Source of the DNA: Cloeon dipterum
Taxonomy: Eukaryota > Arthropoda > Insecta > Ephemeroptera > Baetidae
Length of the DNA stretch: 64,000 nt
Reading direction: 5' to 3'
NCBI RefSeq assembly: GCF_949628265.1
Contig: NC_088787.1
Coordinates: 1,416,501-1,480,500, forward strand
The notes beneath the pieces were generated by a model. That model saw nothing but the letters and a program-made list of their open reading frames with translations. It had not been told where the DNA came from and ran no database searches. This document shows, in pieces, positions 2,080 through 64,000 of the stretch. How positions within the stretch are numbered: position 1 is the stretch's first letter; each line of letters starts with the position of its first letter. The position numbers and the translations under genes are program-made.

Positions 2080-3289
2080 ATGAAACTCGGATTCTTTGTC
2101 ATCGTTTTGCTCCGCGTTTACTTGGCCACCGCCACCAACATCACTCAAGTCTTCGAGTGGAATGAATTTGACTACAAGTGGCCATCCGAGGAGAGCAGGA
2201 ATCAAGCCCTTCAAGAAGGAACTTTCAAACCAGAGAGCATTGAACCTCGTTTCATGGCTGTCTACGGAACAAGGCTCTTCCTCAGCTTTGAGAAACATAT
2301 CAATAATTCGGTGACTCTGGTGTCTTTGCCGACGAAGTCCACTGAGCCTCCGAAGCTCACTCCCTTCCCCTCGTTCGACATGCACGATGTAAGTTCCTCG
2401 GAAAGAAAGTACATAATATAACGATCAAATCAAATGCACTTTTCGTTAATAGTAAAAGTAGAAACTCGAAATTCTAGATAGAATTGGAAGTAAATGTATT
2501 ATTAAAAATTATTTCAGATCCCCAATGGAGTTGCGAATAATTTATTATTTAAAATTTTTATCTCAAGCTATACTCTCGACTATTTTTTAAATACATTCTT
2601 CCCAAAAATATTGTTAATTTCGCTATGATTAAATGACAGTATGAACATCGTTATGTTAGAAAAAATGACGATCTGCTGACATTTTTCAGTTACACAATCA
2701 ATTCCAATCACCACTACCATTACCCCAAAAGACCTTAACTATTATGTCTGTTACCATCACAGAACTACCCGATTCTGTTTGTGAGGAAACTTCCACAACC
2801 GAGGTACACCAATATCGGCTGTTTATCATCACTCTGATCGGCTCCAACGTGTTTAGCGTCGTCTTGCTGAGTTTGATCATTCTTTGGCTCGTCTTGAAAC
2901 TGAAGAGAAAAAATTCCCTTTCGCAAAACACCAACGAGGCCCAGCAAATGTCTGTTTTACCCGACGAGCCGGGCGAGTACAATGCCGTCGGCGCCGCGGA
3001 AGTGCCACTGTACGAGGAAGTCAAAGACGACCAAGTCGCCACACGGTCCCTTGCTGCTCCTAGTCTCTACGAGCGGCCAATTATTCTCAGCCCGCGATCG
3101 GCGAGAAGAGTGAAAGCGATGCCTGAGAGGCAGAAGACTTTCGAGAAATTCGGAGAGGCGCCTCGCGCTCCAGTCGAGTACGACGACGTCGGCCCTCCTG
3201 ATCCCGAACCTTTCTACGATCAAGTTGCACCGGAACCTTCCAGGTCACCCCATCGTGAGTCTGTGCAATACCTGAAAATCCTGCCCTGA
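2080..3289 (+). CDS. Y1: yellow-like N-terminus fused to transmembrane tail (propeller exons absent)
   Basis: Coding exons 2080-2388 and 2690-3289. The exon acceptor is at 2061 and the ATG is 18 nt inside, as in the paralogues. Exon 2 encodes a signal peptide (MKLGFFVIVLLRVYLATA), then the family signatures FEWNEFDYKWPSEES, PRFMAVYGTRLFLS and VTLVSLP...PPKLTPFPSF. The large propeller exon and the next short exon are missing; the intron is only 301 bp. The exons join in phase 0 at TTTTTCAG (2689), giving about 302 residues. The last exon has one transmembrane helix (LFIITLIGSNVFSVVLLSLI region), a KLKRK stop-transfer and a long tail with YNAV, YEEV, VEYDDV, YDQV and VQYLKI. The tail is class II, as in Y7. 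It could be a functional short receptor-like protein or a deletion pseudogene with an intact frame. AATAAA lies at 3411. Confidence 0.65.
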
Positions 3290-3416
3290 GTTCCATCTGA
3301 ACTTTGTTCTCAAGATGAATATAAATTATTTAAGCTTTTTGCGGTTCTTCGACGCATATATGTATCCTTTAACATGTATTGTAAGTGCCGTAAGTGCAAT
3401 TGATTTTTTTAATAAA

Positions 3417-3867
3417 TATAAAACAAACCTGGACAATTCTACGTATTTTATTTATTTAAACCATACAATTTACTTATTTAAAAAAATTAAAATGACTCCT
3501 TTTACTTCACTAAAAAAGGAGAATTTACTTAAAACATAAATGCTAAAATTATAAAATATATATAACGTTCAAAATAACAGCAAAGTAGTCAGAGTAAGGA
3601 TCTGAACGATTTCACATATTAATTTGCTCTCTAATTTTTATAAAATGGAAAAAGAAAGCAGTAATAGCGTGCTGTTTATAAAAAAACGAAAAGAGAGTCA
3701 TGCGGCGATAACAACTATAATTTTATGCGTAACGTTGAATTTCTCTTGCTTTTTCCTTCTTACGCCAATTTTATAAAGTAAAACATTTAAAAACACTTTG
3801 ATAAAGTTAAATTCGTGATAAGAGCAATAAACTACGTTTCAGAGCTGATACAAGAACTCATATTAAC
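3417..3867. other. Y1 to module 2 spacer
   Basis: AT-rich sequence after the Y1 polyadenylation signal. I see no gene, RNA gene or conserved block in it. Confidence 0.5.
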
Positions 3868-4400
3868 ATTGCGGCCGCCAGAGGCAGCATTGTCACCACA
3901 GCCTGATCGTGTTAGTTCAGAAGCTTCCTCAGGCACGGCGCTAATGGCACTTGGCGTGACGTCAGTTGAGGTGGGGAGAAAATCAGCCAGGCGAATGGCA
4001 TGCCACGTAGGAGGGGGAACGAATGAAGTAGAGGAGGCGGAGCTTGCAAGTAAAAGCCAAGAGATGGGGCCTGACGTTAGTTCAGCAGTTGCCTCTGATA
4101 CGGCGCTGGAAGCGCTTTCTGTGACGTCATAAACGGAGGGGGAAGCGGACATATGACTTTGAATAGCATAGCTGAGTGTGAGGAGGGGATATAAATGAAA
4201 ATGAAACAAGTGCACAAAAGGTGGCGCTGGGAAATAAAATCAAAGCAAGCGGCCGTTTCGAGAAGAGGTTGATCCGATCAAACGGACTGACGCGCATTTG
4301 CCCTGCGCAGAGCACGCCCATCCCTCCTTTTAAATGAGTTTTCGCTGGCGGCTTTGTGTAAAAATTACTGAAAATCAAAATTATTAATATATGTATTGCA
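3868..4400 (+). repeat. CRE repeat, copy 2
   Basis: Full copy with both half-units. The first TGACGTCA is at 3957-3964, and a second follows near 4122. The 3' part has the conserved GGTGGCGCTGGGAAATAAAAT segment, the CGGACTGACGCGCATTTGCC segment and the AT-rich tail. Apparent reading frames across it, including one of about 127 codons on the minus strand, are not conserved between copies. Confidence 0.85.
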
Positions 4401-5430
4401 TATTTCACATTTTTCGTCCTCTTTTGACCCTATTATGCAGTATGTCCATCATTTTAACATTTTATTTGGGCCTGGCCTATGGTGTATTTATCGAAAATTT
4501 AGTTACAAAAACTAGCCATAATGATATTTTGGCTAGAAAAATAATTAAACCAGCTTGGATTGTGGCTGCAATTTTTCCTTTTACGCGTGCAAAGCAACTC
4601 GAAGTGCAGAGGCCTGATTCTGTGGTTAGGCCGATTTCGATAGAAGTCACTCTTATCACCCGATCGACGCAAACAAATTTCCAGCTTGAAAATTGAGCGC
4701 AATCCAGAGCAGTGGCTTGGCGGCTTGATTTTAAATTTTAAACTATATTTCATACTAAGTCTTATGCTAATGAATTATGTCTAATTCAAGGAAACTATAG
4801 GCTACACGATTTTCTCGACGCGAATGTGTTTAAAATAATTAATTTAACTAACTGAAGAAGTGCTCATAGAAATCCAGGGATAAAAAAATAATTATTCTAG
4901 AAAAACTATAAAGCTTTGATCGGTCAAGCTGATTGTAGCTCGATTTGTGGTGATGATTCTTCCTGGTTTGAGTTATTTGCGACCGAGGTTCGCAGGCTTG
5001 TTTTTGACGCATGTTAGGCCGACTTCTATTTTAGTTACTTCTTATCGACCTCTGACTCAAAGCATATCTGTGCATGTTAACCTGTTTGAAAATAGAACAA
5101 AAAACTCAAAGCCTTGTTTATTGATTCTTTACCAGCGATTCAACTCGTTAGGAGAAACGTTAATTTCTTAAAATATATATCAAAAATTTGGATTAAAAGT
5201 GCGTTTTTCCGAGCATTGAAATAGCTTTTACATTGATTTGCAAGTGCCCCCGTGAAAGCGTTGAAATAAAGTTCATTTTATAGCATTTGAAGCAAAAAGT
5301 GTGGTATTTTCATCTTGTGTTGCTCAGATTTCCTTATTTGGTGAGCAGGAAGGAGCTTACTCAGACTCCCTTTTGGTCTGTCGCCTTCTGCGTAAAGCCT
5401 TTATCAAAATCGGTGACGCAGCTAGATGAA
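4401..5430 (+). other. Module upstream blocks of Y2
   Basis: Holds the same two upstream blocks as the other modules, near 4555-4700 and 4925-5110. No gene is seen. Confidence 0.55.
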
Positions 5431-5790: not shown

Positions 5791-6000
5791 TACTTCTTGG
5801 AATCGTTAAGCAACTTTTGCACGTTTTGTCATTTATCGAGCAGTTATTTGTGAAGAATTTTGATTAATTAGCGAATCGCTCTTCTAGTTTAGACAAAAAA
5901 TTTTCTTTAATAAATATTTGAGGGAAAAATGAATCAATCACAAAATATTATTTTCATCGGATCATTTAATATTTTTTCAGCTTGCAAAGGTTCGACTAAT

Positions 6001-7186
6001 GGATCATTTCTTCTTTGTCATCGTTTTGCTCCGCCTTTCCTTGGCCTCCGCAGCCAACTTCACTCAAGTCTACCAGTGGAATTTATTTGACTACGAATGG
6101 CCGTAAGAGGCGAGCAGGACACAGGCCTTGAAAGGTGGAACTTTCAAGCCATGGAATATTCAACCTCGATACATGGCAGTTTATGGACCAAGGATCTTCC
6201 TCAGCCTTGAGAAATTTTATGACATACCGGAGACTCTGGTTTCTTTGCCGACAAGCAGTGCGTCCTCTGAACCCCCGAAGCTCACTCCATTTCCATCGTG
6301 GACCATGCATTTAAGTGAATACATAAAAAAGAGTAACAATCAAATTATATGCGCTCAATATCAACAAAAACAGTCAATTTTTAGTTACACTTTGTGGATT
6401 ATTCTATAATTTACTTTGAATCATCGTGAAATATGCAGCTTTATTAACAAAAATATTTGACTTTCCTGGACATCACGAGGTCAGGTTAATCACACAATAA
6501 TATAATTTCCTTACAAAAAGATAATAATGGTGTGGCATTTGGAAATTAGCAACCTGCGATGAATAAAATATAAATTAACACAACACACCTCTTATATAGA
6601 GAAAAAACAATGAAATATTTGAATATTTGATTTTTATACTCCTCTTAAAATTAAATAGAAAATTCGATGTAGAGTTGTTTAAAAACGAAAGAGTATAATT
6701 TTAGCAGGATTATGAAAACTGCAATAAAATCCAGGCTGCAAGGGGGCTAGAAGTTGACACCACTGGTAGGCTGTGGGTGCTGGACAGCGGTAGCAAGAAA
6801 TGTAAGTTTTTTCAACCATCAAGGCATGAGAAATATTGTTTCTATATACGTTTAAATATTCAGTTCCAGATGTCTCCACTCTTCTCTCTTCCGCTGTTAC
6901 ACCCAACTGTATATGCGAAGAAGGGCAAACGGAAGAATCTACAAATACAAACTCTGCTCTGATCGGCTCGCTCACCTTCTTCTTGGTCTTGAGCTGCATT
7001 ATCAACCTGTGGCTCACCCTGAGGATGAGAAAATTCCAAAATTCCAACGAGCAGCGCGACGCAGGCGCCGTGGAAGCGGATATGCCCACTCTCCCGAATC
7101 CTGTCTCGCCGGAAATGGTGCACGAGGAAATCGAAAATGATTTATACGGCGTCGTCACGGCCCCGGCCCCTCATCCAAGGCAATGA
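6001..7186 (+). pseudogene. Y2: broken yellow-like transmembrane gene
   Basis: Exon 2 starts at ATG 6001 (MDHFFFVIVLLRLSLASAAN). TAA replaces the serine codon of the DYEWPSEAS motif near 6104. The family donor ATGTAAGT is changed to TTTAAGT near 6309. Of the propeller exon only its start survives near 6706 (DYENCNKIQAARGLEVD...WVLDSGSKK), then sequence jumps to the last exon; the rest of the propeller and all of exon 4 are deleted. The terminal exon (6870-7186) is open and almost identical to its paralogues: stalk with Cys pair, transmembrane helix and the VHEEIENDLYGV tail. Three separate lesions make this a pseudogene. The clean tail exon suggests gene conversion. Confidence 0.85.
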
Positions 7187-10420: not shown

Positions 10421-10424
10421 GATT

Positions 10425-17081: not shown

Positions 17082-19394
17082 ATGACTCTGTTCAACTGTT
17101 TCGTCGTTTTTCTCTACCTTGCCATTGCCAACGCTGTCAACTTAACTCCCGTCTACAATTGGCCCAATGGATTGGATTACGACAAGCCATCAGGCGCCAG
17201 GAAAGAAGGAACATTCAAACCAGAGGATATTGAACCTCGTTACATGGCTGTGTACAAAACAAGGATTTTCCTCAGCCTCCAGAAATATTACAATATTCCG
17301 GCGACTTTGGTGTCTTTGCCGACGAGCAGCGCGTCCCCTGAACCTCCGAAGCTCACGCCATTCCCCTCGTGGGACAAGCACATTGTAAGTCCTTCAATAG
17401 ATAATAGCTCCAAATTTCTTTTGAGTGTCCAATGCAGTAGCGCCTCATTCATTATTCCTTTTTCACATCAGTAGTATTGACGCATCGAATGCGTTTTTGT
17501 AGTAACCGTAGTGACCATATCATATTTGGTCCACAATCCATTATCATCATTAGAGAACGTCAAATCCGATTTTTACTTTAAAAATTTGAATTGTATATTA
17601 TAATTGAACCAGAATCAAATTTTAAGACTGCACACCAGTAAAAATACTATTTATATGTGTAAAAATGAGAACGAACGGAATTTTTTAAAAATGGTTTTGA
17701 CTGTTTGAAGTTAAATTTTTACGATGATTCGTTAAAAAAAAAGCAAAATTCGATGCTTTCTTGCAGAAATGGGGACGCGATTGCACGAAGATCCAGGCTG
17801 CAAGGGGGCTGCAAGGGGGCTGCAAGTTGACGCCACAGGAAGGCTTTGGGTGTTGGACAACGGTGGTTACAAGTGCAATGCAAAACTCTGGATTTACAAC
17901 TTGGAAAAAGATGATAAACTTGAACTGGAACATGAGTTTTCTTTTCGTGGTTTTACTAATGATCTAGTCCTAGACCAGACTCCTCATGGATATGTTGCAT
18001 TCATTGCAAGGTGGAATGAAGAACACTTAGTCATATTTAGTTTAAACACAAAGGAAACATGGTTTTTGGACACGCTAAGAAGGAAATGGGATGGTTCAAT
18101 TGCCCTTGCCCCAAAGAACAAACCGGGAGAACTCTTCATTAGCGAATACGGCTCCAATAAACTCTTTTCGATTTCCGTTAAGGACATGACTATAAAACTG
18201 ATTGGAAAATGGACTGCATCTCCAACTAGAATGCTGATCGACAGCAATGGGACCATGTATGCCGCATTTTGGTCAAAGAAATATATCGCAACGTGGGACA
18301 CTTCACAGACATTCCAGGAGAAGCACTTTCACCATCTTAAGGTATGTCATTAAAATAATAAAAAATTAATATTAGAAGTCAAAATTGCTGGTGACTTTTG
18401 GCATAGAAAATTACAGAAGCTCGTTGCACGTTTTAGGTTGGAAGCCGGGATTGGCCGTTTTCTTTTGCCTTGGATTCATCCGGAATATTGTGGATGACTG
18501 ATTGTGATCTTAATAAAACAGGGGGTAAACTAAGGTACAGGCTTCTAAAGGCTGAAGTCAGGGCAAGCTCGGACATCATTGATTATTCACCAACATCAGG
18601 TATTTTAATTCTCTATTCACCTTAAATACCAAAAATTAGCACGTGGTAGAAAAACAAATTTTATATTTTTAAAACAATGTAATGTTAATTTCACCCTTTA
18701 CTCAAACTTTAAAATCAGCATTTTGACAACTTACCCAAAAAATCCTTTTGTACTCAAATATTTGAAAGATTTAATATCACAGAGTGCTTCAAAAATCGGA
18801 TAAAACCGTTTTTATCCCACGAAAGCAAAGAAAAGTTTATTTTATTAATCTTTAGTTGCCACCGTCACCAATTCCACTTCCACGGCCAAATCCACCTATA
18901 AAACATTAAATAATGGCGGAAGTAACACAGAAAAATGGCAAACAGGCGATTTTACAAAGAAAGGTAATTTTCACTGACAAAAATTAGCTATTTTCGGAGA
19001 ATTTTTCAACGATCAAGATATGTACAAAATTGTTTCAATGTGGTTAATGATTTATTTTCCAGAGGTTACCACTGTTCCATCCACAACGGAGAAACCCAAC
19101 TGCCCACGCGGACTCTCACAAGAAGGGCAAACGGGTAAAACGGAAAAATCCACAAACTCTGCTTTGATAATCGGCTCGCTCGCCCTCTTCTTGGTCTTGA
19201 GCTGCATTGTCAACTTGTTGCTCACGCTGAGGATTAGAAAATTGCAGAATTCCAACGAGCAGCGCAACGCAGGCGCCGTGGAAATGGAAATTCCCACCCT
19301 CCCGAATCCTGCCTCGCCGGAAATGGTGCACGAGGAAATCGAAAATGATTTATACGGCGTCGTCACGGCCCCGCCCCCTCGTCCAAGGCTGTGA
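17082..19394 (+). pseudogene. Y3: yellow-like transmembrane gene with 11-nt frameshifting duplication
   Basis: Exons: 17082-17384, 17767-18341, 18437-18599, 18856-18963, 19063-19394. Exon 2 gives a signal peptide (MTLFNCFVVFLYLAIANAVN), VYNWPNGLDY, PRYMAVYKTRIFLS and LTPFPSWDKH. The propeller exon has VDATGRLWVLDNGGYKC, DLVLDQTPHGYVAF and RMLIDSNGTMYAAFW. The sequence GGGGGCTGCAA is present twice in tandem near 17803-17824. This makes the exon 575 nt instead of the 564 nt in sister Y6 and shifts frame; without it the gene would encode about 489 residues. All splice sites and the rest are intact. A 36-codon Thr/Ser/Asn-rich exon (18856-18963), shared only with Y6, extends the stalk. The tail is class I (VHEEIENDLYGV, PPPRPR). 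It may be a very recent pseudogene, an allele or an assembly error. Confidence 0.75.
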
Positions 19395-22779: not shown

Positions 22780-24545
22780 ATGAATCCTTTCTTCTTGGTC
22801 ATCATTTCACTCCACCTTTCTTTCGCCATCGCCGCCTACTTCACTCAGGTATTGGAGTGGCCTGAGGAATTGGACTACGAGTGGCCCTCTGAGGCGAGCA
22901 GGACACAGGCCCTGAAAGATGGAACTTTCAAGACAGAGAATATTTATCCTCGATATATGGCTGTTCACGGTTCAAGGATCTTCCTCAGCCTTTATAAAGA
23001 TGACGGCGTTCCGGCGACTCTGGTGTCTTTGCCGACGAACAGCGCGTCATCTCCACCTCCGAAGCTCAATCCTTTCCCCTCGTGGGACATGAATGTAAGT
23101 GTATAATGAAATTCATAATCAAATCATATGCGCTCAGCGAAAACAGTCAATTTTTAAGCAAATTTTATGGATTTTTCTTTTTCATTATACCAGCTTGAAA
23201 TTTGCAGGCAATGTTTAAAAATGTAGTTAATTTTCTGGATTTCTTCAGGAAGTTGGAAACTGCGAAAAAATCCAGGCTGCAAGGGGGCTGGAAGTTGATG
23301 CCGTTGGAAGACTCTGGGTGCTGGACAGCGGTAGCGACATTTGCATGGCCAAAATATGGATTGCTGACTTGTACAATAATGATCACACCAAAATCATTTA
23401 CCGGTTTTCTTTTCACGGCTGGTTGCACGACTTGGTGCTGGACGAAACCCCAAATGAAACCTTGGCCTACATCTTGCGGTGGAATGTACAAAACATTGTC
23501 GTGTTTAGTTTGGAAAGAAACCAATATCGGATGGTGGAAATGCCAGGAATTGAGGTTAATTCCATTGCCCTGTCCCCTAAAAAGGATCCGAGACAGCTCT
23601 ATCTCGGCAAATGGCTCTCTAAAACACTATATTCAATTTCCGTTACCGCACTTCGTAACGGAGCCGAAACTGCAAGTCCAAAACTAATCGGAAACTGGAC
23701 TGCAATGGATTCGTATAGAATGCTGGTGGACAACCACGGGACCATGCATGCCGCCTCTTTGTTTAAAAACTACTTACATTCTTGGAACACTTCCCAGCCA
23801 TTTCAGGAGCAGCGTTTTCACTTGGTAGGCCAATAATTTAAATAAGAAATTAGTAATTCCATTAGACACTAATTTGATTACAGGTCAACATTTTGTACAT
23901 AGTAGAGATTTATTTACGGTTTCATTCCTTCAATTGTTCCCTTTGGTCCAGCTAAAATGATAACAGCTCGTTACACATTTTAGGTTGGAAATCTGACTAC
24001 TAGCTGGCCGTTTACTTTTGCCTTGGACTCGTCAAGAACCTTGTGGCTTACTGTATTTAATTATAAAGGCACCAAGCCAAGGTGCAAGCTACTAAAGGCT
24101 GCAGTAGGGGCGAAGCCATACTACATCAGTAAATCTCCAGCGTCAGGTAATTTTTTCTAAAAAATAGCGATTTTTAGAAGATTTTTCAACCTTATAAAGA
24201 TAAGTAAAAAAGTCTATTGTTCATATGATTCATTTTTTTCTAGATGTCTCCACTCTTCCCTCCACTAACTGTACATGTGAAAGAAAGCAAACGGGAAAAT
24301 CCACAAACTCTGCTTTGATAATCGGCTCCTTCGCCTTCTTCCTGGTCTTGAGCTGCATTATTAACCTGTGGCTCACCCTGAGGATGAGAAAATTGCGGAA
24401 TTCCAGCGAGCAGCGCAACGCAGGTGCCGAGGAAATGGAAATGCCCACTCTCCCGAATCCTATCTCGCCGGAAATGGTGCACGAGGAAATCGAAAATGAT
24501 CTATACGGCGTTTTCATGGCCCCACCCTCTCGACCAAGGTTGTGA
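22780..24545 (+). CDS. Y4: yellow/MRJP-like type I transmembrane protein
   Basis: Exons 22780-23094, 23249-23824, 23984-24146 and 24244-24545 join in frame (phases 0, 0, 1), about 451 residues. The order is: signal peptide (MNPFFLVIISLHLSFAIAA); VLEWPEELDYEWPSEAS, PRYMAVHGSRIFLS and LNPFPSWDMN; the propeller exon with GNCEKIQAARGLEVDAVGR, WVLDSGSDIC, LVLDETPNETLAY and RMLVDNHGTMHAAS; then WPFTFALDSS and the Cys of KPRCKLLKA. The last exon has a short stalk with NCTC, a transmembrane helix (IIGSFAFFLVLSCIINLWL) and the class I tail ending VHEEIENDLYGVF. Yellow-family proteins are normally secreted, so the membrane anchor is the odd part. The whole reading frame is intact. Confidence 0.85.
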
Positions 24546-36443: not shown

Positions 36444-38506
36444 ATGAATCCTTTCATCTTTTTCATCATTTTGCTCCGCCTTTTCCTGGCCACCGCCGTC
36501 AACTTCACTCAGGTCTTCCAGTGGTCGAATGGATTGGACTACGAGTGGCCCTGCAAGGCAAGCAGGACACGGCCATTAAAAAGAACGCCGGTTGAACCTC
36601 GTTCCATGGCAGTGTACGAAACAAGGATTTTCCTCACCCTTTTTTTAAATATTAATAATCCGGTGAGTTTGGTGTCTTTGCCAACAAGCGGCGCGTCCTC
36701 TGCATCCCCGAAGCTCACTCCATTCCCATCGTTCGACGTGCATGTAAGTGTTTATTATAAAGAATAAGAATAAAATCATTTGCGCTCATCGTTCAATCAC
36801 ACGTGGCTTTCGGAAATTTGCAACCTGAAAATTTACCGTACAGAGTGGGGTCGCCACAAGACAATTTTTCACGAAAAATGGCGATAATATATTATACTGG
36901 TATTTGTTTTTTTCATTTTGAATTAATAATTAGCATAATTAGGCAAAACAAATGGTTAAATACGCAACAATATATCTTTTTTCAGGAATATGGGAACTGT
37001 GAAAAAATTGAAGAAGCTAGTGGGCTTCAAGTGGATGCTTTTGGCAGGCTGTGGGTGCTGGACAGCGGTAGCAACAAATGCAATGCAAAACTGTGGACCA
37101 TTGACTTGTTAAACAAGAATCACACTAAACTAATTCATCGGTTTCCCTTTCGAAAATGGGTCAACGAATTGGTACTCGACATAATGCCCCACGAAACTTT
37201 GGCCTACATCTCGTGGTGGGGTGAACAACACATCGCCGTGTTTAGTTTGGAAAAAGATAAATCTTGGACGGTGGACACGCCTGGAATACATGTATTTTCA
37301 ATTGCCCTGTCTCCTAAGGAGGGACAGAGACAGCTCTACCTTAGTAGATACAATTCCAACGAACTGTATTCGATTCCCGTTGCCACACTTCGCAATGGAA
37401 TTCAAACTGCAAATCCAAAACTAATCGGAAAGTGGACTGCAAATACAAAAGCATACAGGTTGATGATGGAAAACCTCGGGACAATGTATGCCGCCTTTTT
37501 TAAGAAGAACTACATTTCGTCTTGGAACTCTTCCCAGCCATTTGAAGAGCAGCGCTTCCATGAGGTAAATGTCACCAAAATAAATTATAAAATTGTGGTT
37601 CTAGTGGAAATCTTTTTTTTTTATTAGAAGTAGACATTTTATATAGGGAAGTTTTGTGTACGGTTTCATTTCTTCATTATCAACCTTTGGTTTTAAGCTA
37701 AATTAACAACAGCCCGTTACTATTTTTAGGTTTCAATGCTGAACACCAGTTGGCCGTTTACTTTTACCTTGGACTCGTCGGGAACCTTTTGGATGACCGA
37801 GCTTAATAATACAGCGAATAAGCCAGGGTGCAGGCTACTAAAGGCTGCAGTAGTTGCAAAATCCCTCAAGGCCTCACCAGGTAAGTTTGCTTTAAAACGT
37901 TTTACTGCCAATAAGAAAATGTTTATTATACGTGTTTTGCTAAAACCAGCTGGAATTAATAGGGTTTACTACAGCCAACCGCAGCATCTGGGCATAAATT
38001 ATTTTTTTATTTCTATATCAACAAAAATTTCAATTTTTTTTTTCAGTGTAATCAGCTTCCATATCAATTTATTCCCATTTTAGTTAATATCAATCACCAC
38101 TACGAATTCCCAAAAGACCAAACCATTTCCTGTTACCTTTACAGAACGATCCAGCTCGGTGCACGTATATCGGCTGTTTACCATCATTCTGGTCTGCTCC
38201 ATCGTGTTCTGCGTCGTCTTGTTTAGTCTGATCATGGTTTGGCTCATCCTGAGACGAAAGAGGAACAATTTCCTTCCGCAATACACCAACGAGACCCAGG
38301 AAATGTCCGTTTTCCGTGACAATCACGAAGTCCAAGATGAGGATTCGAGAAGTGCCGCCGCACATTCCTCTCCGGATGAGTACGACGACGTCGGCCCTCC
38401 TGAACCGGAACATCTGTGCGATGACGTTGCACCGGAACCTTCCAGGTCACAACATTGTGAAGATAATACTTCTGAGTCGGCACAATACCTGAAAATTCTG
38501 CCATGA
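36444..38506 (+). CDS. Y7: yellow/MRJP-like type I transmembrane protein, class II tail
   Basis: Exons 36444-36743, 36986-37564, 37730-37880 and 38145-38506 give about 463 residues. It has a signal peptide (MNPFIFFIILLRLFLATAVN), QWSNGLDYEWPCKAS (a Cys replaces Ser) and PRSMAVYETRIFLT. The propeller has YGNCEKIEEASGLQVDAFGR, WVLDSGSNKC, AYISWWGEQHIAVFSLEKD and RLMMENLGTMYAAFF. Exon 4 has WPFTFTLDSSGTFWMTE and KPGCRLLKA. The last exon has a transmembrane helix (FTIILVCSIVFCVVLFSLI), RRKRN, and a tail with EYDDVGPPEPEH, APEPSRSQ and AQYLKILP: the same class as Y1. An upstream AG (38083) would put the same exon in phase 0, as used by Y1; in the full transcript only the acceptor at 38144 keeps frame. 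Confidence 0.82.
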
Positions 38507-40257: not shown

Positions 40258-42228
40258 ATGAATCCTTTCCCCTGTGTCACCATTTTGCTCCGCCTTTCTT
40301 TGATGGCCACCGCCATCAACTTCACCAGTCAAGTCTTCGAGTGGCCCAATTATTTAGACTACGAGTGGCCGTCGGAGGCGAACCGGACACAGCCACGGCA
40401 AGCTGGAACTCTCAAACCAGAGGATATTCAACCTCGTTACATGGCTGTCTACAAAACAAGGATCTTCCTCAGCATAAAATACGATAGCAACCTTCCGGTG
40501 AGTTTGGTGTCTTTGCCGACAAGCGGCGCATCTTCTCTGTCCCCGAAGCTAACCCCAGTCCCGTCGTTGGACATGCATGTAAGTACATAGTAAAGAGAAA
40601 CAGTCAAATCATACGTGCTCAGCAAAAACTAGTCACTTTTTAGTCGATTTTTTCTATTTGTCTAATTTTCATGAAAACTTGTTTGCATTTTCTGGATTTA
40701 AATTACGTAGTCAGAATCAATATACAATATTATTATATTTCCTTCCGAGAGGATATGATAGCTTAATCTCGTAGCTTTTGGGATTTGCAACCCGAATAAA
40801 ATGAAAAATCATTAGTGTGGCAAAACACAATAATTTATAAATGAGATAAAAACATTTAAAAAAATTTAATTTAATCTTTCTTTAAGAGATAAAATTAAGT
40901 CAGATGTGAAATTTGAGGAATATTTGCAGGGATATGGAAACTGCAACAAAATAGAAAAAGCAAAAGGGCTGCAAGTTGATTCCGTTGGAAGGCTGTGGGT
41001 ATTGGACAGCGGCAGCCTCAAATGCTATTCCAAAATATGGGCCATTGACTTGGCCGACAATGATCACACCAAACTCATTTATCAGTTCCCTTTTCACAAA
41101 TTGATGCACGATATAGTGATTGATGAAACACCCAATGGAACCTTTGCCTACATTGCATTGTGGGTTAAAGAACAAATTGTCGTGTTTAGTTTAGCGAAAA
41201 ATCAATCTTGGTTATTGGACACGCCAGGAGTCGAGGTTTTTTCCATCGCCCTATCTCCCAAGGAAGAATTGCCGACACAGCTCTACCTTGGTGAATACCG
41301 ATCCAATGAACTGTATTTAATTTCCGTTGCCGCACTTCGCAGTGGGACTGGAATTGCAAATCCGAAACTAATCGGAAACTGGACTGCAACTTATTCATAC
41401 AGAATGCTGATGGACAACCACGGGACCTTGCATGCCTCCTTTTTGGATAAGAATTACACTTCTTCTTGGAACACTTCCCAGCCATTTCAGGAGAAGCGTT
41501 TTCATGAGGTAGAACAACAATTTAAAAAATAATTTTTAATACTATCATATATCGACTGTGTCTTTTTTATTGGTCAACAATTTCGTTTCAAATTGGAGTG
41601 TTGCGTGTTTTGATTAATTTCTTCAATGTCAACTTTTGTTATTAATTAAATGAAAACAGCACGTTACACTTTTTAGGTCGAAAATCTGACTACTTTTTGG
41701 CCGTTTACTTTTGCTATGGACCTTTCGGGAAACTTTTGGATCACTGTATTTCATGATACAGGGAACAAGCCAAGGTGCAGGCTACTAAAGACTGCGGTCA
41801 GTCCGAAGCCATATATCAGTGATTCTACGACAAAAGGTATTTTTCTCCGACAAAATAACTATTTGCAGAAGATCTTTTAATCAACAAGATACGTAAAATA
41901 TTGTTTATATGTGGTTACATGTTCAGTTCCAGATGTTGCCACTGTTACATCCAACTGTACATGTGAAGAGGGGAAAACAGAAGAATCTACAAATTATGCT
42001 TTGATCGGCTCGCTCGACTTCTTCCTGGTCTTGAGCTGCATTTTCACCCTGTGGCTCGCCCTAAGGATTAGAAAATTGCAAAATTCCAACGAGCAACGCA
42101 ACGCAGGCGCCGTGGAAATGGAAATGCCAACTCTCCCGAATCCCGTCTCGCCGGAAATGGTGCACGAGGAAATCGAAAACGATTTATACGGCGTCGTCAC
42201 GGCCCCGGCCCCTCGTCCAAGGATGTGA
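40258..42228 (+). CDS. Y8: yellow/MRJP-like type I transmembrane protein
   Basis: Exons 40258-40578, 40930-41508, 41677-41836 and 41933-42228; phases agree, about 451 residues. It has a signal peptide (MNPFPCVTILLRLSLMATAI), FEWPNYLDYEWPSEANRTQ, PRYMAVYKTRIFLS, and the propeller with YGNCNKIEKAKGLQVDSVGR, WVLDSGSLKC, IVIDETPNGTFAYI, QSWLLDTPGVEVFSIALSP and RMLMDNHGTLHASF. Exon 4 has WPFTFAMDLSGNFWIT and KPRCRLLKT. The last exon has NCTC, a transmembrane helix containing an unusual Asp (IGSLDFFLVLSCIFTLWLA) and the class I tail ending VHEEIENDLYGVV. The acidic residue in the helix may matter for partner binding or may be neutral. Confidence 0.85.
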
Positions 42229-44641: not shown

Positions 44642-46627
44642 ATGAATTCTTGCTTCTTTGTCACCTTTTTGCTCCGCCTTTCCCTGACCACCGCCGTTAA
44701 CTTCACTCAAGTCTTTGAGTGGAATGAATGGGCATACGAGTGGCCGTCCAAGGCTATCAAGACACAGGTCCAGCGAGAGGAATCTTTTAATCAAGAGCAT
44801 ATTCAACCTCGATACATGGCTGTGTTCGGAACAAGGATCTTCCTCAGCCTTGAGAAATTTGATGACATACCGGTGACTCTGGTGTCCTTGCGGACCAGCA
44901 GCGCGTCCTCTTCGTCCCCGAAGCTCACTCCATTTCCTTCGTGGGCCATGAATGTAAGCGGATAGTAAAATATATCATTCCAGTAAATGTGTCACTTTTT
45001 AGTCATTTTAAGTTGCTATACTGACACTGACGTCACCCCTCTGATGTCACAGCTCTCTCTGCTGCCAAAGCACGAGGCATGGCTGTGACGTCAGAGGGGC
45101 GACACTTGCGCAGTTGCGACCAAATGATTCATGCGTTGCGTGCGCCAAAGCAACATATGTTTTGTTTTGTGCACGTCAAAAAACGTATATTTTTCGACCG
45201 AGCAACCTATTTCCTATATTCAACCCTCATGAATCGATTGGGATGTAAACAACTGTTGGGTGTTTAAGAATTAATAAATGACCTTGAATATGAATCGTTC
45301 AAGGATTTAATTTTATTCTCTTTTAAAGAAATGGAAAGATTGCAACAAGATCCAGGCTGCAAAGGGGCTGGATGTCGATTCTGTTGGAAGGCTGTGGGTG
45401 CTCGACAACGGCAGCGACAGTTGCAGTTCAAAACTATGGACCATTGACTTGGCTAACAATGATCAAACCAAACTAATTATACAGTTCCCATTTCAAAAAT
45501 TGAAGCACGACTTGGTGCTTGATGAAACCCCAAACGGAACCTTTGCATACATCTCGCTCTGGGGTGAACAACACATTGTCGTGTTTAATTTGGAAAGAAA
45601 TCAGTCTTGGACGTTGGACACGCCAGGAATCAAGGTTTTTTCCATTGCCCTGTCTCCTATAAAGGACCAGGAACCGAGAAAGCTCTACCTTGGTAAATGG
45701 AACTCCAAAGAACTATATTCAATTCCCGTCGCCACACTCCGCAATCGAACTCGAACTGCAAACCCGAAACTAATTGGAAACTGGACTGCAATTAATTCAT
45801 ACAGAATGCTGATGGACAACCACGGGACCTTGTACGCCGCCTCTTTGAAGAATAATTGTATACTTTCATGGAACACTTCCCACCCATTTAAAGAGCAGCG
45901 TTTTCAAAAGGTATAGGTTTCAAAAACTAAATAAAAGTTTCTTTTTTTTTATTGGTCAACAATTTGAATTTTGGAGTTTTGTTTATTGTTTCATTTACTT
46001 AATTTTATCCTTAGGCATTTTCTAAAATAACAAAAGTTCACTACTCTTTTTAGGTTGGAAAACCAAATATTGTTTGGCCGTTTACTTTTGCCTTGGACTC
46101 GTCAGGTAACTTTTGGATGACTGCATTTAATTATAAAGGGGATAAGCCAAAGTGTAAACTACTAAGGGCTGTAGTCGGTACGAAGCCATACTACATCAAA
46201 GATTCTACTACGAAAGGTATAATTCTCCCAAAAAATTTAATGTTGGAAGTTCCTTTCAACCATGAAGATCTTTAAATAATATTGTTTCAATGTGGTTAAA
46301 TATTATTTTCCAGGTGTCTCCACTACACCAACCAACTGCACATCATGCATTAAAGGCGGCAATTTCCCAGGGAAAAGGCAAGCGGACGAGTCTACAAACT
46401 ATGCTTTGATCGGCTCGGTCGCCCTCTTCTTGGTCTTGAGCTGCATTATCAGCCTCTGGATCACCCTGAGGATTAGAAAAACGCGAAATTCCAACGAGAA
46501 GCGCAACGCAGGCGCCGAGGAAATGGAAATTCCCACTCTCCCGAGTCCCGTCTCACCGGAATTGGTGGACGAGGAAATAGAAAACGATTTATACGGCGTC
46601 GTCACGGCCCCGCCCCCTCGTTCATGA
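44642..46627 (+). CDS. Y9: yellow/MRJP-like type I transmembrane protein
   Basis: Exons 44642-44953, 45329-45910, 46054-46216 and 46314-46627 give about 456 residues. It has a signal peptide (MNSCFFVTFLLRLSLTTAVN), FEWNEWAYEWPSKAI and PRYMAVFGTRIFLS. The propeller has KDCNKIQAAKGLDVDSVGR, WVLDNGSDSC, LVLDETPNGTFAYISLWGEQ, SWTLDTPGIKVFSIALSP and RMLMDNHGTLYAAS. Exon 4 has WPFTFALDSSGNFWMTAFN and KPKCKLLRA. The propeller-exon acceptor is the weak-looking TTTTAAAG. The stalk has NCTSC. The transmembrane helix is IGSVALFLVLSCIISLWI. The class I tail is variant (SPELVDEEIENDLYGVV) and ends PPPRS. Intron 2 holds a hairpin with TGACGTCA arms. Confidence 0.85.
45028..45105. repeat. Inverted repeat with TGACGTCA arms in Y9 intron 2
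   Basis: Arms ACCCCTCTGATGTCACAGC and GCTGTGACGTCAGAGGGGC are inverse complements with one or two mismatches around a loop of about 28 bp. The sequence after it (CCCTCATGAATCGATTGGG near 45225) recalls the end of the foldback MITE at 57671. This may be a degraded MITE. Confidence 0.55.
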
Positions 46628-48808: not shown

Positions 48809-50619
48809 ATGAATCTTTTCTTCATTGCCATCGTTCTTCTCCGCCTTTCCTTTGCCATCGGCGCCAACTTCACTCAAGTCTTCCAGTGGAATGAATTTGA
48901 CTACGAGTGGCCATCTGAGGCGAAAAAATCACAGGCGTTGAGAGCTGGAACTTTCAATCCAGCGTATATCGAACCTCGTTACATGGCAGTGTACGGAACA
49001 AGAATTTTCCTTAGCATAGGAAAACACGATAAGGATCTTCCGGTTAGCCTGGTGTCTTTGCCGACGATGAGCATCGCGTCCTCGGCGTCCCCGCAGCTCA
49101 CTCCAGTCCCTTCGTGGGACGCGCATGTAAGTGTAAAGAAATGAGTAACAATCAGCACTCATTGTCAGCGAATAAAGCCAATTTTTGGTTAGATATTTAC
49201 TGCGTTTAGTTATGAATAAACGGAAAATTAATTAATTTAAAAAAATTATTATTGTAGTTTTTAAAAAGTTTAATGCTTTAATTGAAATTTCGATGAAGAT
49301 TTTTTGTCCAAAAACAAAAAAATTTTTTTTTTTCAGGGAAAGGGAGACTGCAACAAAATTGAAAAGGCAAAAGGATTGCAAGTCGATTCCGTTGGAAGGC
49401 TGTGGGTGCTGGACAGCGGTAGCTCCGAATGCAAAGCCAAAATATGGATCATTGATTTGATCAACAACGATCAAACCAAACTTATTCACCGGTTTTCATT
49501 TAACGGCTGGATGCACGACTTGACCATCGACGAAACGCCCAACGGAACCTTGGCCTACATCTCGCGGTGGGGTGAACAACACATTGTCGTGTTTAGCTTG
49601 GAAAAAAATCAGTCTTGGACAGTGTACACGCCAGGAATCGCAGTTTTGTCCATCGCCCTGTCTCCTAAGGTAGAACCGAGAGAGCTCTACCTTGGCAAAT
49701 ACAACTCCAATGAACTGTATTCAATATCCGTTGCCACTCTCCGCAACGGAACTCGAACAGTAAATCCGAAACTAATCGGAAAATGGACTGCACTTAGTTC
49801 ATATAGAATGCTGATGGACAACCGCGGGATCATGTATGCCGCCTTTAGTTGGAATAACTACATATCATCGTTTAACACTTCCCAGACATTATCTACGGAG
49901 CAGCGTTTTTATGAGGTAGGAAACCAATTTAAAAACCAAAAAAATTCTGATTTTATAAGAGATTGATTGTTATTATTGGTAAACTTTTAACTATTATAAA
50001 TTGTACAGTTTCAACTCTTCAATTTTATCCTGTGAACTTAACTAAATTGACAAAAGTCCCTTAAACATACTTTTTAGGTTGGAGAGCTGGATACTAGATG
50101 GCCGTTTACTTTTGCTTTGGACACGTCGGGAAACTTTTGGATAACTGTATTTAATGATAAAAGGAACAAGCTAAAGTGCAGGCTCTTAAGGGCTGCAGTC
50201 GGTGCGAAGCCATACATCAGTGATTCTCCGACAGCAGGTAATTTTCTCTGAAATAATTACTTTTTCCGGAAGTTATTTTAATATTAATTTCTATAGAAGT
50301 CACCAATTTTCCTTCCACCACTGTTACAACCAAATACACAAGTATTAATAGCGGAAAAATGGAAACAGAACAGTCAACAAACTCTGCTTTGATAATCGGC
50401 TCGCTCGCCTTCTTCCTGGTCTTGAGCTGCATTATCAGCCTGTGGCTCACCCTGAGGATGAGAAAATTGCAAAATTCCAACGAGCAGCGCAACGCAGGTG
50501 CCGAGGAAATGGAAATGTCCACTCTCCCGAATCCCGTCTCACCGGAAATTGTGCACGAGGAAATCGAAAATGATTTATACGGCGTCGTCACGGCCCCGCC
50601 CCCTCGACCAAGGTTCTGA
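48809..50619 (+). CDS. Y10: yellow/MRJP-like type I transmembrane protein
   Basis: Exons 48809-49126, 49337-49915, 50078-50237 and 50297-50619; phases agree, about 459 residues. The ATG at 48809 is 18 nt inside the exon, as in the paralogues. It has a signal peptide (MNLFFIAIVLLRLSFAIGAN), QWNEFDYEWPSEAKKSQ and PRYMAVYGTRIFLS. The propeller has GDCNKIEKAKGLQVDSVGR, WVLDSGSSEC, LTIDETPNGTLAYISRWGEQ and RMLMDNRGIMYAAF. Exon 4 has WPFTFALDTSGNFWIT and KLKCRLLRA. The stalk is Thr-rich and lacks the Cys pair seen in other copies. The transmembrane helix is IIGSLAFFLVLSCIISLWL. The class I tail ends VHEEIENDLYGVV, PPPRPR. It is the last member of the tandem array proper. Confidence 0.85.
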
Positions 50620-51929: not shown

Positions 51930-51989
51930 AATTCATCTAACACTTTTCAAACGAAACAGTCCTAGCTCTTCATTCAAATATTTTCCGCT

Positions 51990-59532: not shown

Positions 59533-59559
59533 CTCCAAAATGGGCGAATTTTTAAAGCT

Positions 59560-60464: not shown

Positions 60465-62057
60465 ATGACTCCGTTTTCCATCGCCATTTTCCTCCTCGGC
60501 CTTTCATCCCTGGCCACCGCTGCCAACTTGAATCAAGTCTTCGAGTGGAATGAATTGGACTACGAGTGGCCGTCGGAGGAAAGCAGGGCACAGACCATGC
60601 CCGCTGGGATTGTCAAACCAACGAAAATCAAACCTTTTTACATGGCTGTCTACGGATCAAGGCTCTTCCTCAGCCTGTTAAGAGACGATAGCACACCGGT
60701 GACTCTGGTGTCTTTGCCGACGAGCAGCGCAAACTCTGAGTCTCCGAAGCTCACTCCTTTCCCCTCCTTGGAGAAGCACGTAAGTACATACAGCTCGATG
60801 TATATTTTATTTTGCCCTGAATTGGAATAGAGAAGCATTTGCTGAGCTCACAATAAGGATTATGATCGATACAAGGGATTTACTAAAAACCTATTACTTT
60901 TCTTGGGGAATTCGGTAATCGCATGGCACGGTTTTAAAGCCCTATAACTGGTTCATTTAATTTTCTTGAAATGCAAATTCTTCATTTAAACCAAAGTATT
61001 AAAAGTGCCACAATCATTTCCTCTTGTTGCAGGATTTTGGAAACTGCGAAAAAATTGAAGAAGCGTCAGGACTGCAAATTGACTCCACTGGAAGGTTGTG
61101 GGTGCTCGATGAGGGAAGCTACGACTGCGCTTCCAAATTATGGACGATCAACTTGGCCATCTACGATCACACCAAACTAATTCACCGGTTTCCCTTTCAA
61201 AATTTGATTCACGACTTTGTGCTCGACGAAACGCCCAACGGAACCTTCGCCTACATCTCGCAGTTGGCTGCCCAACACATTGTCGTGTTTAGTTTGGAGA
61301 GAAATGAATCTTGGAATCTGGACACGCCAGGAAAACAGCTTTTATCCATTGCCTTGTCCCCTAAGGAGAAATCGAGAAAGTTCTACGTCAGCAACTACCA
61401 CTCCAGTGAACTCTATTCACATTCCGTGGCCGCACTTCGGGAAGGAATTCGAACTGCAAATCCGGAACTAATCGGAAACTGGACCGCAGAGCCATATAGA
61501 ATGCTAATGGACAACCACGGGACCGTATATGCCACCTTTTGGGGGAAGAATTACTTATCTTCTTGGAACTCTTCCCAGCCGTTTGCTGAGCAGCGTTTTC
61601 ATGAGGTACGTCAACAGTTTAACAAAACATTTGAGAACGGAATATCGTTCAAATATCGGGTTTTAGAGACGAGTATTAGGATACTCATTAATTTTTTTGT
61701 CCACCGCAATATTTCGCAAAAAATATTCATCGAATGTTGGGAGGTAGCTATCGTCGAGGGTGGGCGCCTCTCCTTTTAGTTTGATTGGACAGGATTTTGC
61801 CACTTTTTTATTCGTACTGGCCGTCAGCAATTCTTATTAATTAGAGTCGGTAAATTGTTTGGTTTTAGGTCGCTGGACTGAAAACTGATTGGCCATTTAC
61901 TTTCGCCTTGGACCAAAGTGGAAACTTTTGGTTGATGATGTTTGACGACAAAAGAAAGCCAAGATACAGGCTATTGAAGGCTGTGGGCGAAGCAACATCC
62001 TTCAAGGCCACACCGTGTAAGTTTTCTCCGCTTGAAAACATTTTAATGCCAACGTAA
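60465..62057 (+). CDS. Y11: yellow/MRJP-like protein, membrane exon not found
   Basis: Exons 60465-60779, 61033-61605 and from 61869. It has a signal peptide (MTPFSIAIFLLGLSSLATAA), FEWNELDYEWPSEES and PFYMAVYGSRLFLS. The propeller has FGNCEKIEEASGLQIDSTGR, WVLDEGSYDC, FVLDETPNGTFAYI, SWNLDTPGKQLLSIALSP and RMLMDNHGTVYATFW. Exon 4 has WPFTFALDQSGNFWLMMF and KPRYRLLKA (Tyr for Cys). A donor at CACCGT|GTAAGT (62016) exists. Reading through instead reaches TAA at 62055-62057, giving about 358 residues and a secreted protein like canonical yellow/MRJP. Splicing to AG at 62264 gives TAA at once. Just beyond, ATG 62270 opens a frame ending in a hydrophobic run (VVFVFLLAIAIL). The C-terminus is therefore uncertain. 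Confidence 0.7.
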
Positions 62058-62889
62058 ATTGATAGAAAAATCATTTTCAATTATTAAAATAGTTACCATT
62101 TATCTGAGATACGTTTACTGTGTGCTGCTACTTATTAAACTCTACACTATATTTTTATAATAACTAAATGACTATCTCTTTTTGTTTAAAAATTTCTAAA
62201 GATGACGTGAAGATAAATGCAAGCAAGCATTAATTAATTTAACTAACTAACATGCCAATTTCAGAATAGATGGAGCAAGCGGTGGAGAGGAAAATGTTGC
62301 GGAAAACGCCTCCCAAAGTGCGAAGAATACTGATCAGCTCGAGCGTAGTCTTCGTTTTCCTCTTGGCCATAGCCATTTTGTAGTCTCACTAGCAAGCTTG
62401 AATTTTTTTCAGTTCAAATAAAGGGAATTTTGTTATTTGTAGATAAATGGGCAGTCTCTTGACCCTGCATTACTCTTGAACTAACAGTAAAAAGGTCATG
62501 TCAGTTGGAAGCATCTCTCCGATTCTGTTCGATAAAGATTCTTTGTAACAGTTAAAAAATTTTCATCATGCTTTTAGGTTTCCTGGCTTTTATTTTTCAA
62601 ACCTACAAATTCTTCCAAACCAAAGGAAAGAGTGCATTTCGCCAATCATTTTTACCTTGCCCATCAAAAGGCTGTGAATAATATTTTAAATTGATTTTTT
62701 TTTAGCAAAATTAACTATTTTAGAGTGAAAATAAAGTAGGGAATTGTCTGAAAATAGTCTAAGATGATGAACTAGCTCACGCTTATCAGAAATTATCTTT
62801 CTGTTTCTGATTTTAGACCACGAATTGCCCGAAACCAACTCAGTCGCTTTTATTTTCAGTTGTTACACGGAGCGAGAGACAATAAGAGA
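62058..62889. other. 3' region of Y11
   Basis: Contains the possible terminal exon after TTTCAG (62264), with a short hydrophobic frame at 62270-62383, and AATAAA at 62417. No class I or class II tail exon is present. Nothing else is recognised. Confidence 0.4.
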
Positions 62890-63509
62890 GAGGATCGCGG
62901 TGCTTGTATTTTGCTCTCGAGAGTACTGATATAAGACGTCAAATTAGCTGCTAAATTCATGGCCCGCCTCCCAACTCACAACAAGTGTCCATCTCTTTAA
63001 TTTATAATACTGATTCGGCGCAGCAGATCTTTTCAAGGTCCTTTTTTGAGTGGCTCATCAAAGAGCGAGCGATCACAGCTGTTCTCTCCTCTTCACCAGC
63101 GTGCAATCGGATGCAGATAGAGATTTTTAACACAGGCCACTCTTCAGCATTTTAAAATTTAAAAAAATAACTTATTGCTGATTGAGCATCAAAATTTATT
63201 TTTAGATAATTTCTAGAGGTTCGGTTGCTAATTAGGTACAATTTCAAGCATTTTGTTGGTTTTCTGATAGTCGAATTTCACCTTTAATTGGAAAATAAAT
63301 TAATATGGCTTTAATAATGTCAACTAAAATTCAACGGAATTTAATGTTGAGTTTTACATGAGAGCGAAAAGCAGACCCTTGCGGGGCCAAAATACGTCAT
63401 CTTTTTTGGCCCGTCACGTGACTCGATTCGCGAGGCAAAGGCCATCACACTGCTCAGCACAGCAACAGCGCACAACGAGAAGAGGAGCCGCGTGAGAGGC
63501 ACGCCTGTG
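62890..63509 (+). promoter_or_regulatory. Y12 upstream region and noncoding exon 1
   Basis: Shares both blocks with Y11: CTCGAGAGTACTGATATAAGA, TTCATGGCCCGCCTCCC and AAAGAGCGAGCGATCACAG near 62920-63080; ACAACGAGAAGAGGAGCCGC and CACGCCTGTG|GTGAGTTCGCTCTC near 63474-63523 (donor after 63509). A duplication of Y11 and its upstream region is the simplest source. Confidence 0.6.
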
Positions 63510-63823
63510 GTGAGTTCGCTCTCGCTTACATTAATTTGTATTTATCGGCGAACTAAAAGTCTTAAAAGTAGAGTAAAATTTACATAGCTTTCCAAGGAAC
63601 GGTTCTAAGAGCATTTTATTTTTACTCGCAACTAAAGCAAAGAAAAATTATTGTATTAATTAAATCAAACGTATTTATATAGCCTTCGTTATTTTTCAAT
63701 TAAATTTAAACTCCTTGATGTGGTAAAAAGCCTCCTTTGTCACTCCGTTCCGTTATGTTCTCAAAATGACGATTGCATTTTATGTTTTCCTAGCATTTCT
63801 AAAAATTAAAAAAGGCTGGAAGC

Positions 63824-64000
63824 ATGATTCCGTTTTTCGTCGCAATTTTCTTGCTCGGCCTTTCATCCCTGGCAACCGCTGCCAACTTCAATCAAGTCTT
63901 CGCGTTAACTGAATTGGACTACGAGTGGCCGTCGGAGGCGAGCAGGGCACAGGCCTTGCGAGATGGAACTTTCAAACCTGAGAACGTTTATCCGCGTTAC
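63824..64000 (+). CDS. Y12: yellow/MRJP-like gene, first coding exon, cut by the window end
   Basis: ATG 63824 begins a signal peptide (MIPFFVAIFLLGLSSLATAA) nearly identical to Y11, then NFNQVFALTELDYEWPSEAS and GTFKPENVYPRY at the window edge. It is the next member of the cluster and sister to Y11. The usual W of the FEW motif is changed (VFAL). Nothing can be said of the rest. Confidence 0.75.
   Translation, partial: MIPFFVAIFLLGLSSLATAANFNQVFALTELDYEWPSEASRAQALRDGTFKPENVYPRY

Follow-up and report, generated by a model that had tools for sequence, protein, structure and literature searches.

Introduction

Can a family of proteins known for being secreted also supply an insect with membrane receptors? 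The question is raised by a stretch of 64,000 nucleotides from the mayfly Cloeon dipterum (hereafter the window; C2:1416501-1480500, C2 being contig NC_088787.1 of assembly GCF_949628265.1), inside which lie ten gene copies of yellow/MRJP type, here named Y1-Y10. Yellow/MRJP proteins are among the best-known secreted families of insects, and their molecular role is still debated. In their typical form, as set out in the part of PMC6678240 consulted, they carry no membrane anchor. Six of the ten copies (Y4-Y9) depart from that form: their sequences almost certainly encode a propeller joined to a transmembrane (TM) segment and a cytoplasmic tail, and we consider it probable, if far from assured, that they belong to a family of surface-recognition receptors built on the yellow/MRJP propeller and equipped with signalling tails.

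A yellow-type propeller joined to a membrane anchor

Y4, Y5, Y6, Y7, Y8 and Y9 are intact and finish in a TM exon. The protein predicted from each begins with a hydrophobic stretch, continues through a full MRJP-type ectodomain and a stalk to a single hydrophobic TM segment, and closes with a basic stop-transfer sequence and a cytoplasmic tail. With splice sites read directly, all six consist of four exons with GT-AG introns of phases 0, 0 and 1 and form one open frame of 451-483 residues. Inspection finds the hydrophobic N-terminus of a putative signal peptide in 6/6, signal peptides and TM segments being judged from hydrophobicity and a structure model alone. The acceptor at the TM exon is in phase 1 in every intact gene, the frame of TM segment and tail is under constraint, and genome-wide matches to the TM exons (39 rows for the short-tail and 105 for the long-tail form, split exons being counted repeatedly) all fall on the same chromosome; for these reasons the architecture of Y4-Y9 is taken to lie beyond chance.

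The initial annotation had proposed at least six intact, membrane-anchored yellow/MRJP paralogues. Anchoring is borne out by sequence and splice frame in Y4-Y9, and the number six stands, but Y10 had been counted wrongly and the intact Y5 omitted. The last exon of Y10 is of the glycosylphosphatidylinositol (GPI) anchor type with its hydrophobic end out of frame with the remainder of the exon, and the NCBI model P0014 ends upstream of that hydrophobic end; Y10 was rejected as a TM protein on account of this exon. Two suspicions of broken genes were also dropped: the micro-exons that early spliced models gave Y5 were artefacts that vanished on direct reading of the splice sites, and g16, a copy outside the window, has an open exon 2 when read in the same way.

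By domain and predicted fold the family is yellow/MRJP. Pfam MRJP (PF03022) scores 68.7 bits against Y7 and 60.8 bits against P0003, an NCBI protein of 458 residues, with a curated cut-off of 19.8, and is the sole domain returned for either. An AlphaFold model of P0003, made from an alignment of 86 sequences, has 314 of its 458 residues at a predicted local distance difference test score (pLDDT) of at least 90 and comprises a propeller (residues 21-335), a disordered stalk, a helix (376-418) and a mostly disordered tail. Its neighbours by Foldseek and VIA-align (969 Foldseek-ranked chains re-aligned) are the Aedes dopachrome conversion enzyme, which is the best, MRJP1 and a Lutzomyia salivary protein. 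The complete yellow-type propeller claimed at the outset has its counterpart in the six-bladed yellow-type fold of this model. Y4-Y9 differ from the anchor-less typical form in their C-terminal hydrophobic segment and its basic flank, as does the P0003 model in its helix, and membership of the family nevertheless stands because absence of an anchor is a descriptive rather than a defining property.

P0003 has the whole architecture, with the TM exon joined to the ectodomain. When P0003 served as its own query against the genome, it was placed at copy g4, some 71 kb to the left of the window, as four exons of phases 0, 0 and 1; the agreement of P0003 with g4 is thus not that of two separate predictions. 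The junction of exon 3 to the TM exon is hence also predicted by a second pipeline, though not for every copy. P0001, the best match in the Y7 protein search, is the NCBI model of Y7 and is identical to it across the aligned part. A very improbable alternative would place the TM exon on separate transcripts, or make the full-length frames artefacts of annotation. It can point to the many annotated models without a TM exon, to two that omit half of the propeller, and to an in-frame methionine ahead of the TM core in 12 of 27 last exons, sometimes upstream of the acceptor; but the other 15 have no such methionine, the TM exon is joined to the ectodomain in P0003 and also in P0002, P0004 and P0020 (relatives whose C. 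dipterum contigs appear to come from a different assembly), and the phase-1 junction is constant in six intact genes with a constrained frame.

As a separate observation, the NCBI models of Y7 (window 40930-41508) and Y8 (45329-45910) leave exon 2 at an identical internal point, in Y7 after ...LYL; splicing from there to the TM exon would remove half of the propeller, and the junction may be a real isoform or an artefact of prediction.

Alternative last exons and their tails

Within a 264-kb region, 36 copies (g numbers) were followed to their last exons: 11 have a TM exon with a short tail, six a TM exon with a long tail, four a tyrosine-free TM exon (TMx), six a GPI-type exon and three repeats of epidermal growth factor (EGF) type. 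None was found in the remaining six, an upper bound, as last exons were sought within 2.2 kb downstream and the long tail at C2:1347763 may belong to g5. The GPI-type exon is in frame in four of six (g26, g27, g31 and g33) and out of frame in g24 (= Y10) and g25. A simple hydropathy rule applied to 118 retrieved proteins, a set redundant between assemblies and exclusive of two other-insect proteins, gave 33 with a TM segment, 11 with a hydrophobic, GPI-like end, two with EGF repeats, eight unclear and 64 without a segment. As far as sequence can tell, then, one type of ectodomain comes in a predicted membrane-receptor, a GPI-type, an EGF-bearing and an apparently soluble form. The TM architecture proposed for the family consequently holds for six genes of the window and not for the whole family, GPI-type, EGF-bearing and apparently anchor-less paralogues being present in the same cluster.

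Several of these ends deserve a note of their own. TMx is found at g29, g30, g32 and g35 (C2:1496671-1517607), the retrieved tail having no tyrosine. At g7, g9 and g10 (C2:1358617-1370729) Delta/Jagged-like EGF repeats replace the anchor, with four EGF-like matches downstream of g7; the repeats also occur on a paralogue, P0086, that has no TM segment. Orphan short-tail TM exons lie at C2:1308860 and 1317663 (minus strand) with no ectodomain exon of their own by tblastn at 1e-3.

Motifs were counted in eight distinct of nine long tails, all 14 short tails and four TMx tails. Long tails carry acidic tyrosine motifs (EYDDV, YEEV, EYDYV, LYDEV) in up to four repeats and mostly end in QYLKI or QYLQL; in Y6 exon 4 one usual tyrosine is replaced (HLCDDV). 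Of their 51 tyrosines 35 stand inside YxxV/I/L, where shuffled sequences gave 8.1 on average and never more than 17; because the long tails are related, this enrichment describes one conserved set of motifs and not separate events. The spacing of an immunoreceptor tyrosine-based activation motif (ITAM) is approached, with V permitted, in 6/8 distinct long tails, and the inhibitory pattern (ITIM; [S/I/V/L]xYxx[I/L/V]) occurs, as a sequence match only, in 5/8 versus 0/14 short tails. The tail of P0110 contains YEEI, the textbook Src SH2 site. Short tails have a single motif, NDLYGVV, NDLYGVF or NDLYGVL, in 13 of 14, the remaining one being cut off upstream of it, and mostly finish in proline-arginine. 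TMEM154 (PF15102) was tried as a tail family and rejected: P0110 (27.8 bits), P0107 (21.1) and P0108 (20.1) stay below the cut-off of 30.3, and the likeness is taken as generic to TM segments.

The tails bear on an explanation that we regard as unlikely: extracellular enzymes or structural proteins for dopachrome conversion, cuticle or eggshell, tethered by TM or GPI anchors, with tail motifs for trafficking or endocytosis (YxxV as an AP-2 signal). YxxV can indeed also act as a sorting signal, and dopachrome conversion enzyme is the closest structure. Yellow proteins are described in pigmentation, cuticle, moulting and eggshell in the portions of PMC13147567 and PMC8716798 consulted. Against this, the acidic YDDV/YEEV-type repeats (up to four) and the conserved QYLK/Q end suit SH2 domains better than AP-2, and highly variable loops under positive selection would be odd in a conserved enzyme.

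Diversifying selection on the propeller

Codon models were fitted to 18 of the 36 exon-2 copies, those near Y7 and unbroken. M8 is favoured over M7 by a doubled log-likelihood difference (2dlnL) of 77 and over M8a by 50, and 16% of codons are assigned an omega of 2.07; the two halves of the exon, on their own trees, give 36.8 and 33.5 against M7 and 22.9 and 24.1 against M8a, and a set of eight short-tail genes alone gives 13.1. The same site test returns 43.6 for exon 1, and 0.02 and 2.1 for the TM-tail exons (13 of 14 short and 6 of 9 long tails, including the broken copies Y2, Y3 and g14, an orphan tail and the twin of Y1). Mean omega is 0.56 in exon 2, 0.53 in exon 1, 0.75 in exon 3 (fitted with one omega only), and 0.49 and 0.47 in the constrained short and long tails; average omega being alike in all parts, what distinguishes the ectodomain is its class of sites with omega above 1 and not its mean.

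Of the 17 exon-2 sites with P >0.9, 13 fall in loops, three in strands and one ahead of the first strand. Alternate loops hold 10 selected sites in 29 residues and the other loops three in 47 (Fisher p 0.003), and entropy in the 86-protein alignment is 2.36 bits in alternate loops, 1.15 in other loops and 1.13 in strands. As propeller strands alternate in direction, the strand order suggests that the alternate variable loops share one face of the propeller. The codon models and the loop pattern together uphold the description of the family as diversifying. That the propeller might serve instead as a small-molecule receptor or scavenger, binding amines or water-borne chemicals in the manner of the Lutzomyia yellow-type salivary proteins, perhaps in chemosensing by nymphs, is quite improbable, given that the variation sits in loops and the tail motifs look like SH2 sites.

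Tails shared across ectodomains

In the ectodomain tree (34 of 36 copies, g16 and g17 dropped), Y5 (g19) belongs with g11 and g12 to a divergent subfamily, B (bootstrap/SH-aLRT 100/100), whose members nevertheless carry the common tails. Synonymous divergence (dS), compared for nine of the 11 genes with a short tail and four of the six with a long one, averages across subfamilies 0.97 in exon 2 versus 0.19 in the short tail (eight pairs), and 1.13 versus 0.30 in the long tail (four pairs); within subfamilies the means are 0.54 versus 0.23 (28 pairs) and 0.24 versus 0.25 (two pairs). Tail divergence therefore does not track ectodomain divergence, and tails have been homogenised. By blastn, the main similar stretch in eight cross-subfamily pairs lies on the TM-tail exon and in 7/8 ends no more than 100 bases from the stop codon; between g19 and g21 similarity continues for 1.2 kb past the stop codon at 90% identity. 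Mapped on the ectodomain tree, tail types require 16 changes, compared with a minimum of 5 and a mean of 21.3 after shuffling; well-supported branches force only two for each of the two main tail types, and the tree alone is weak evidence for tail swaps.

A 7.2-kb duplication of 97.6% identity (C2:1388906-1396076 and C2:1415000-1422192, the latter reaching window 1-5692) contains Y1. In both duplicates the start falls within a long-tail TM exon (that of g12 or g16) and the end just upstream of exon 1 of the next gene copy; a start in tail exons is the mark that unequal crossing-over in the tail would be expected to leave. The sharing seen in these sequences is compatible with gene conversion, with crossing-over and with constraint on the tail alike.

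Family size and distribution

The genome searched comprises 190 Mb in 10 contigs. A search with exon 2 of Y7 brought up 375 candidates, of which 150 were scored, each listed match covering at least 172 of 193 residues, and the PF03022 profile gave 199; merged, the matches listed mark at least 210 separate exon-2 places, 196 of them on C2. High-scoring, canonical-like PF03022 rows on C1 (1.19, 16.84 and 18.95-18.99 Mb), C3 (14.5 and 18.4 Mb) and C4 (26.8 Mb) were left out of the merge, and 60 of the 210 places are supported by PF03022 alone, a few of which (e.g. C4:33.7 Mb) may be ordinary yellows. The merged list contains 23 of the 36 exon-2 copies that tblastn located in the 264 kb (the Y2 remnant uncounted); if the 210 places share this recall, a fair estimate of the total would be about 330 copies. 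No relative from another mayfly was among the matches listed (109 of 110; 105 of 107, the other two from an ant and a louse; and 4 of 4 were from C. dipterum), in searches limited by word sharing, and restriction to a single species is not claimed. Apart from this family, several equal-score matches in the canonical yellow cluster (C1:18969146-18990218) recur exactly 10,367 bases apart, which points to duplication in tandem in the recent past or to a repeat in the assembly.

A probable receptor role, and what speaks against it

The case for recognition receptors rests on the combination of a variable, positively selected propeller face with constant, exchangeable membrane and signalling ends. 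Like the initial annotation, we infer a receptor or adhesion role, strengthened by the YxxV/I/L-rich long tails and by a tail exon common to genes whose ectodomains parted much earlier than their tails. Surface display, ligand binding, phosphorylation and signalling, as well as the cell type and any immune use, we likewise infer.

It is worth setting out what weighs against a receptor family. Firstly, anchoring is not general, 64 of the 118 retrieved proteins having no C-terminal hydrophobic segment, and the NCBI models of Y7 (P0001) and Y8 (P0081) include the TM exon but pass over exon 3 and the latter half of exon 2, P0081 additionally being without its first 58 residues. Secondly, the commonest last exon (11/36) offers a short tail with a single tyrosine motif, and TMx none; a strict ITAM (YxxL/I, 6-12 residues, YxxL/I) was not found in the eight distinct long tails, where the +3 residue of the spaced motifs is V. 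Thirdly, the program used for the codon tests was home-made and kept relative branch lengths fixed, tests of this kind can be inflated by recombination, and the tail tests draw on fewer sequences and codons than those of the ectodomain; the asymmetry of the loops could be partly generic to the fold, with secreted yellows perhaps alike. Finally, constraint could explain part of the low tail divergence, and in three of the eight cross-subfamily pairs (g19-g18, g19-g22, g11-g2) further similar pieces lie downstream at 76-84%.

A typical gene consists of three ectodomain exons, a phase-1 intron and then one of several last exons, which on the receptor reading would set the fate of the protein: a TM segment with a short, a long tyrosine-bearing or a tyrosine-free tail, a GPI-type anchor, EGF repeats, or none. 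The disordered stalk would hold the propeller away from the membrane, and the variable loops, mostly on one putative face, would bind changing ligands. Clustering might then lead Src-family kinases to phosphorylate the YxxV/I/L motifs of the tail, which would recruit SH2 proteins and so bring about engulfment, adhesion or restraint, with short-tail, GPI and soluble forms acting as partners, decoys or weaker signallers. Immune use of the family is a tentative proposition, and equally tentative is its fullest form, a germ-line repertoire of about 330 genes for paired-receptor-like innate immune receptors, in which long-tail forms, activating or inhibitory, would share the variable face with short-tail, tail-less, GPI and soluble ones and a uniform tail would be moved between genes by gene conversion or unequal crossing-over. 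By the same molecular mechanism the family might instead serve reproduction or allorecognition between tissues (of gametes, of mother and embryo, or of self and non-self), which seems rather unlikely. Tandem birth and death, positive selection and shared tails occur in such families too, and C. dipterum is ovoviviparous; the number of genes and the mixture of TM, GPI, EGF and anchor-less forms would be more typical of pathogen recognition.

Other features of the window

The copies in the window and the two TM modules are collected in Table 1. Exons 2-3 of Y1 were not found, leaving it without a propeller, and no exon 3 was found for Y2. Between Y4 and Y5, a 420-residue open frame on the minus strand (window 28394-29653) has a reverse transcriptase domain (PF00078, 1.9e-33) and is a mobile element. 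Three minus-strand frames lie between Y9 and Y10 (window 52416-54008), one with a weak leucine-rich-repeat match (PF23598) below the cut-off; they are perhaps an unrelated gene within the cluster.

Table 1. Yellow/MRJP-type gene copies of the window and type examples of the TM modules (window positions; aa, amino acids).
Feature	Position	Strand	Exons and state
Y1	2080..3289	+	exon 1 ~2080-2388; long-tail TM exon ~2771-3289
Y2	5999..7186	+	degenerate: stop in exon 1, exon 2 remnant of ~31 residues, short-tail TM exon retained
Y3 (g17)	17082..19394	+	four exons, short-tail TM exon; exon 2 frame broken by 10-bp tandem duplication
Y4 (g18)	22780..24545	+	22780-23094, 23249-23824, 23984-24146, 24244-24545; 451 aa, intact, short-tail TM
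Y5 (g19)	31283..33798	+	31283-31588, 32063-32626, 32723-32885, 33380-33798; 483 aa, intact, short-tail TM
Y6 (g20)	36444..38506	+	36444-36743, 36986-37564, 37730-37880, 38145-38506; 463 aa, intact, long-tail TM (EYDDV ... SAQYLKILP)
Y7 (g21)	40258..42228	+	40258-40578, 40930-41508, 41677-41836, 41927-42228; 453 aa, intact, short-tail TM
Y8 (g22)	44642..46627	+	44642-44953, 45329-45910, 46054-46216, 46314-46627; 456 aa, intact, short-tail TM
Y9 (g23)	48809..50619	+	48809-49126, 49337-49915, 50078-50237, 50300-50619; 458 aa, intact, short-tail TM
Y10 (g24)	60465..62382	+	open ectodomain exons 60465-60779, 61033-61605, ~61869-62016; GPI-anchor-type last exon ~62271-62382
Short-tail TM module, type example Y7 exon 4	41927..42228	+	stalk, TM segment, RIRK stop-transfer, tail end NDLYGVVTAPAPRPRM
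Long-tail TM module, window example Y6 exon 4	38145..38506	+	phase-1 acceptor TTACCTTTACAG

Significance and comparison with known systems

Were the receptor reading correct, a yellow propeller with tyrosine tails, hundreds of genes and diversified loops would constitute a new receptor scaffold in animals, swapping ectodomains onto a known reporter tail would open a route to the ligands of yellow proteins, and an invertebrate would offer an evolution of variable heads on constant tails comparable to that of vertebrate paired receptors. Such ideas are experimentally approachable in C. dipterum, which, according to the parts of the sources consulted, was inbred for seven generations for its genome (PMC7250882) and has been used in gill-regeneration and injection experiments (PMC11597413).

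The domain family is known, as are multigene receptor families as an idea; no report of membrane-anchored yellow/MRJP proteins, or of an MRJP expansion in a mayfly, was found in searches of the open-licence PMC literature. Term searches gave no occurrence of yellow, MRJP or royal jelly in the main text of the C. dipterum genome paper, and none of transmembrane, membrane or GPI in PMC1553450. Compared with the rest of PF03022 (insect yellow, dopachrome conversion enzyme, MRJP1), the Cloeon genes add a C-terminal stalk, TM segment and tyrosine tail, or another last exon; the yellow-type salivary protein of Lutzomyia longipalpis (3q6k) is by contrast secreted and not known to have a TM segment. 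Leaf-cutting ants have 20-26 MRJP/yellow genes and one social parasite 17, in the part of PMC8131649 consulted, whereas Cloeon has at least 210 exon-2 places, and variable loops.

A Draper-type ectodomain is made of EMI and EGF-like repeats, and none was returned by the Pfam scan of Y7 and P0003, which gave MRJP alone. The ITAM (Draper-I) and ITIM (Draper-II) tails of Drosophila Draper are read by Src42A, Shark and Corkscrew, according to the part of PMC4503800 consulted. As in Draper/CED-1, the Cloeon proteins would be insect membrane receptors with tyrosine motifs, and the Src42A-Shark-Corkscrew pathway could, by analogy, read their tails; unlike Draper/CED-1, their ectodomain is a yellow propeller, they form a multigene family and the +3 residue is mostly V. 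With the vertebrate paired receptors KIR and LILR they share tandem genes, variable ectodomains, several cytoplasmic or anchor types and signs of exchange between genes, but their scaffold is unrelated and belongs to an insect, so the likeness is one of analogy only.

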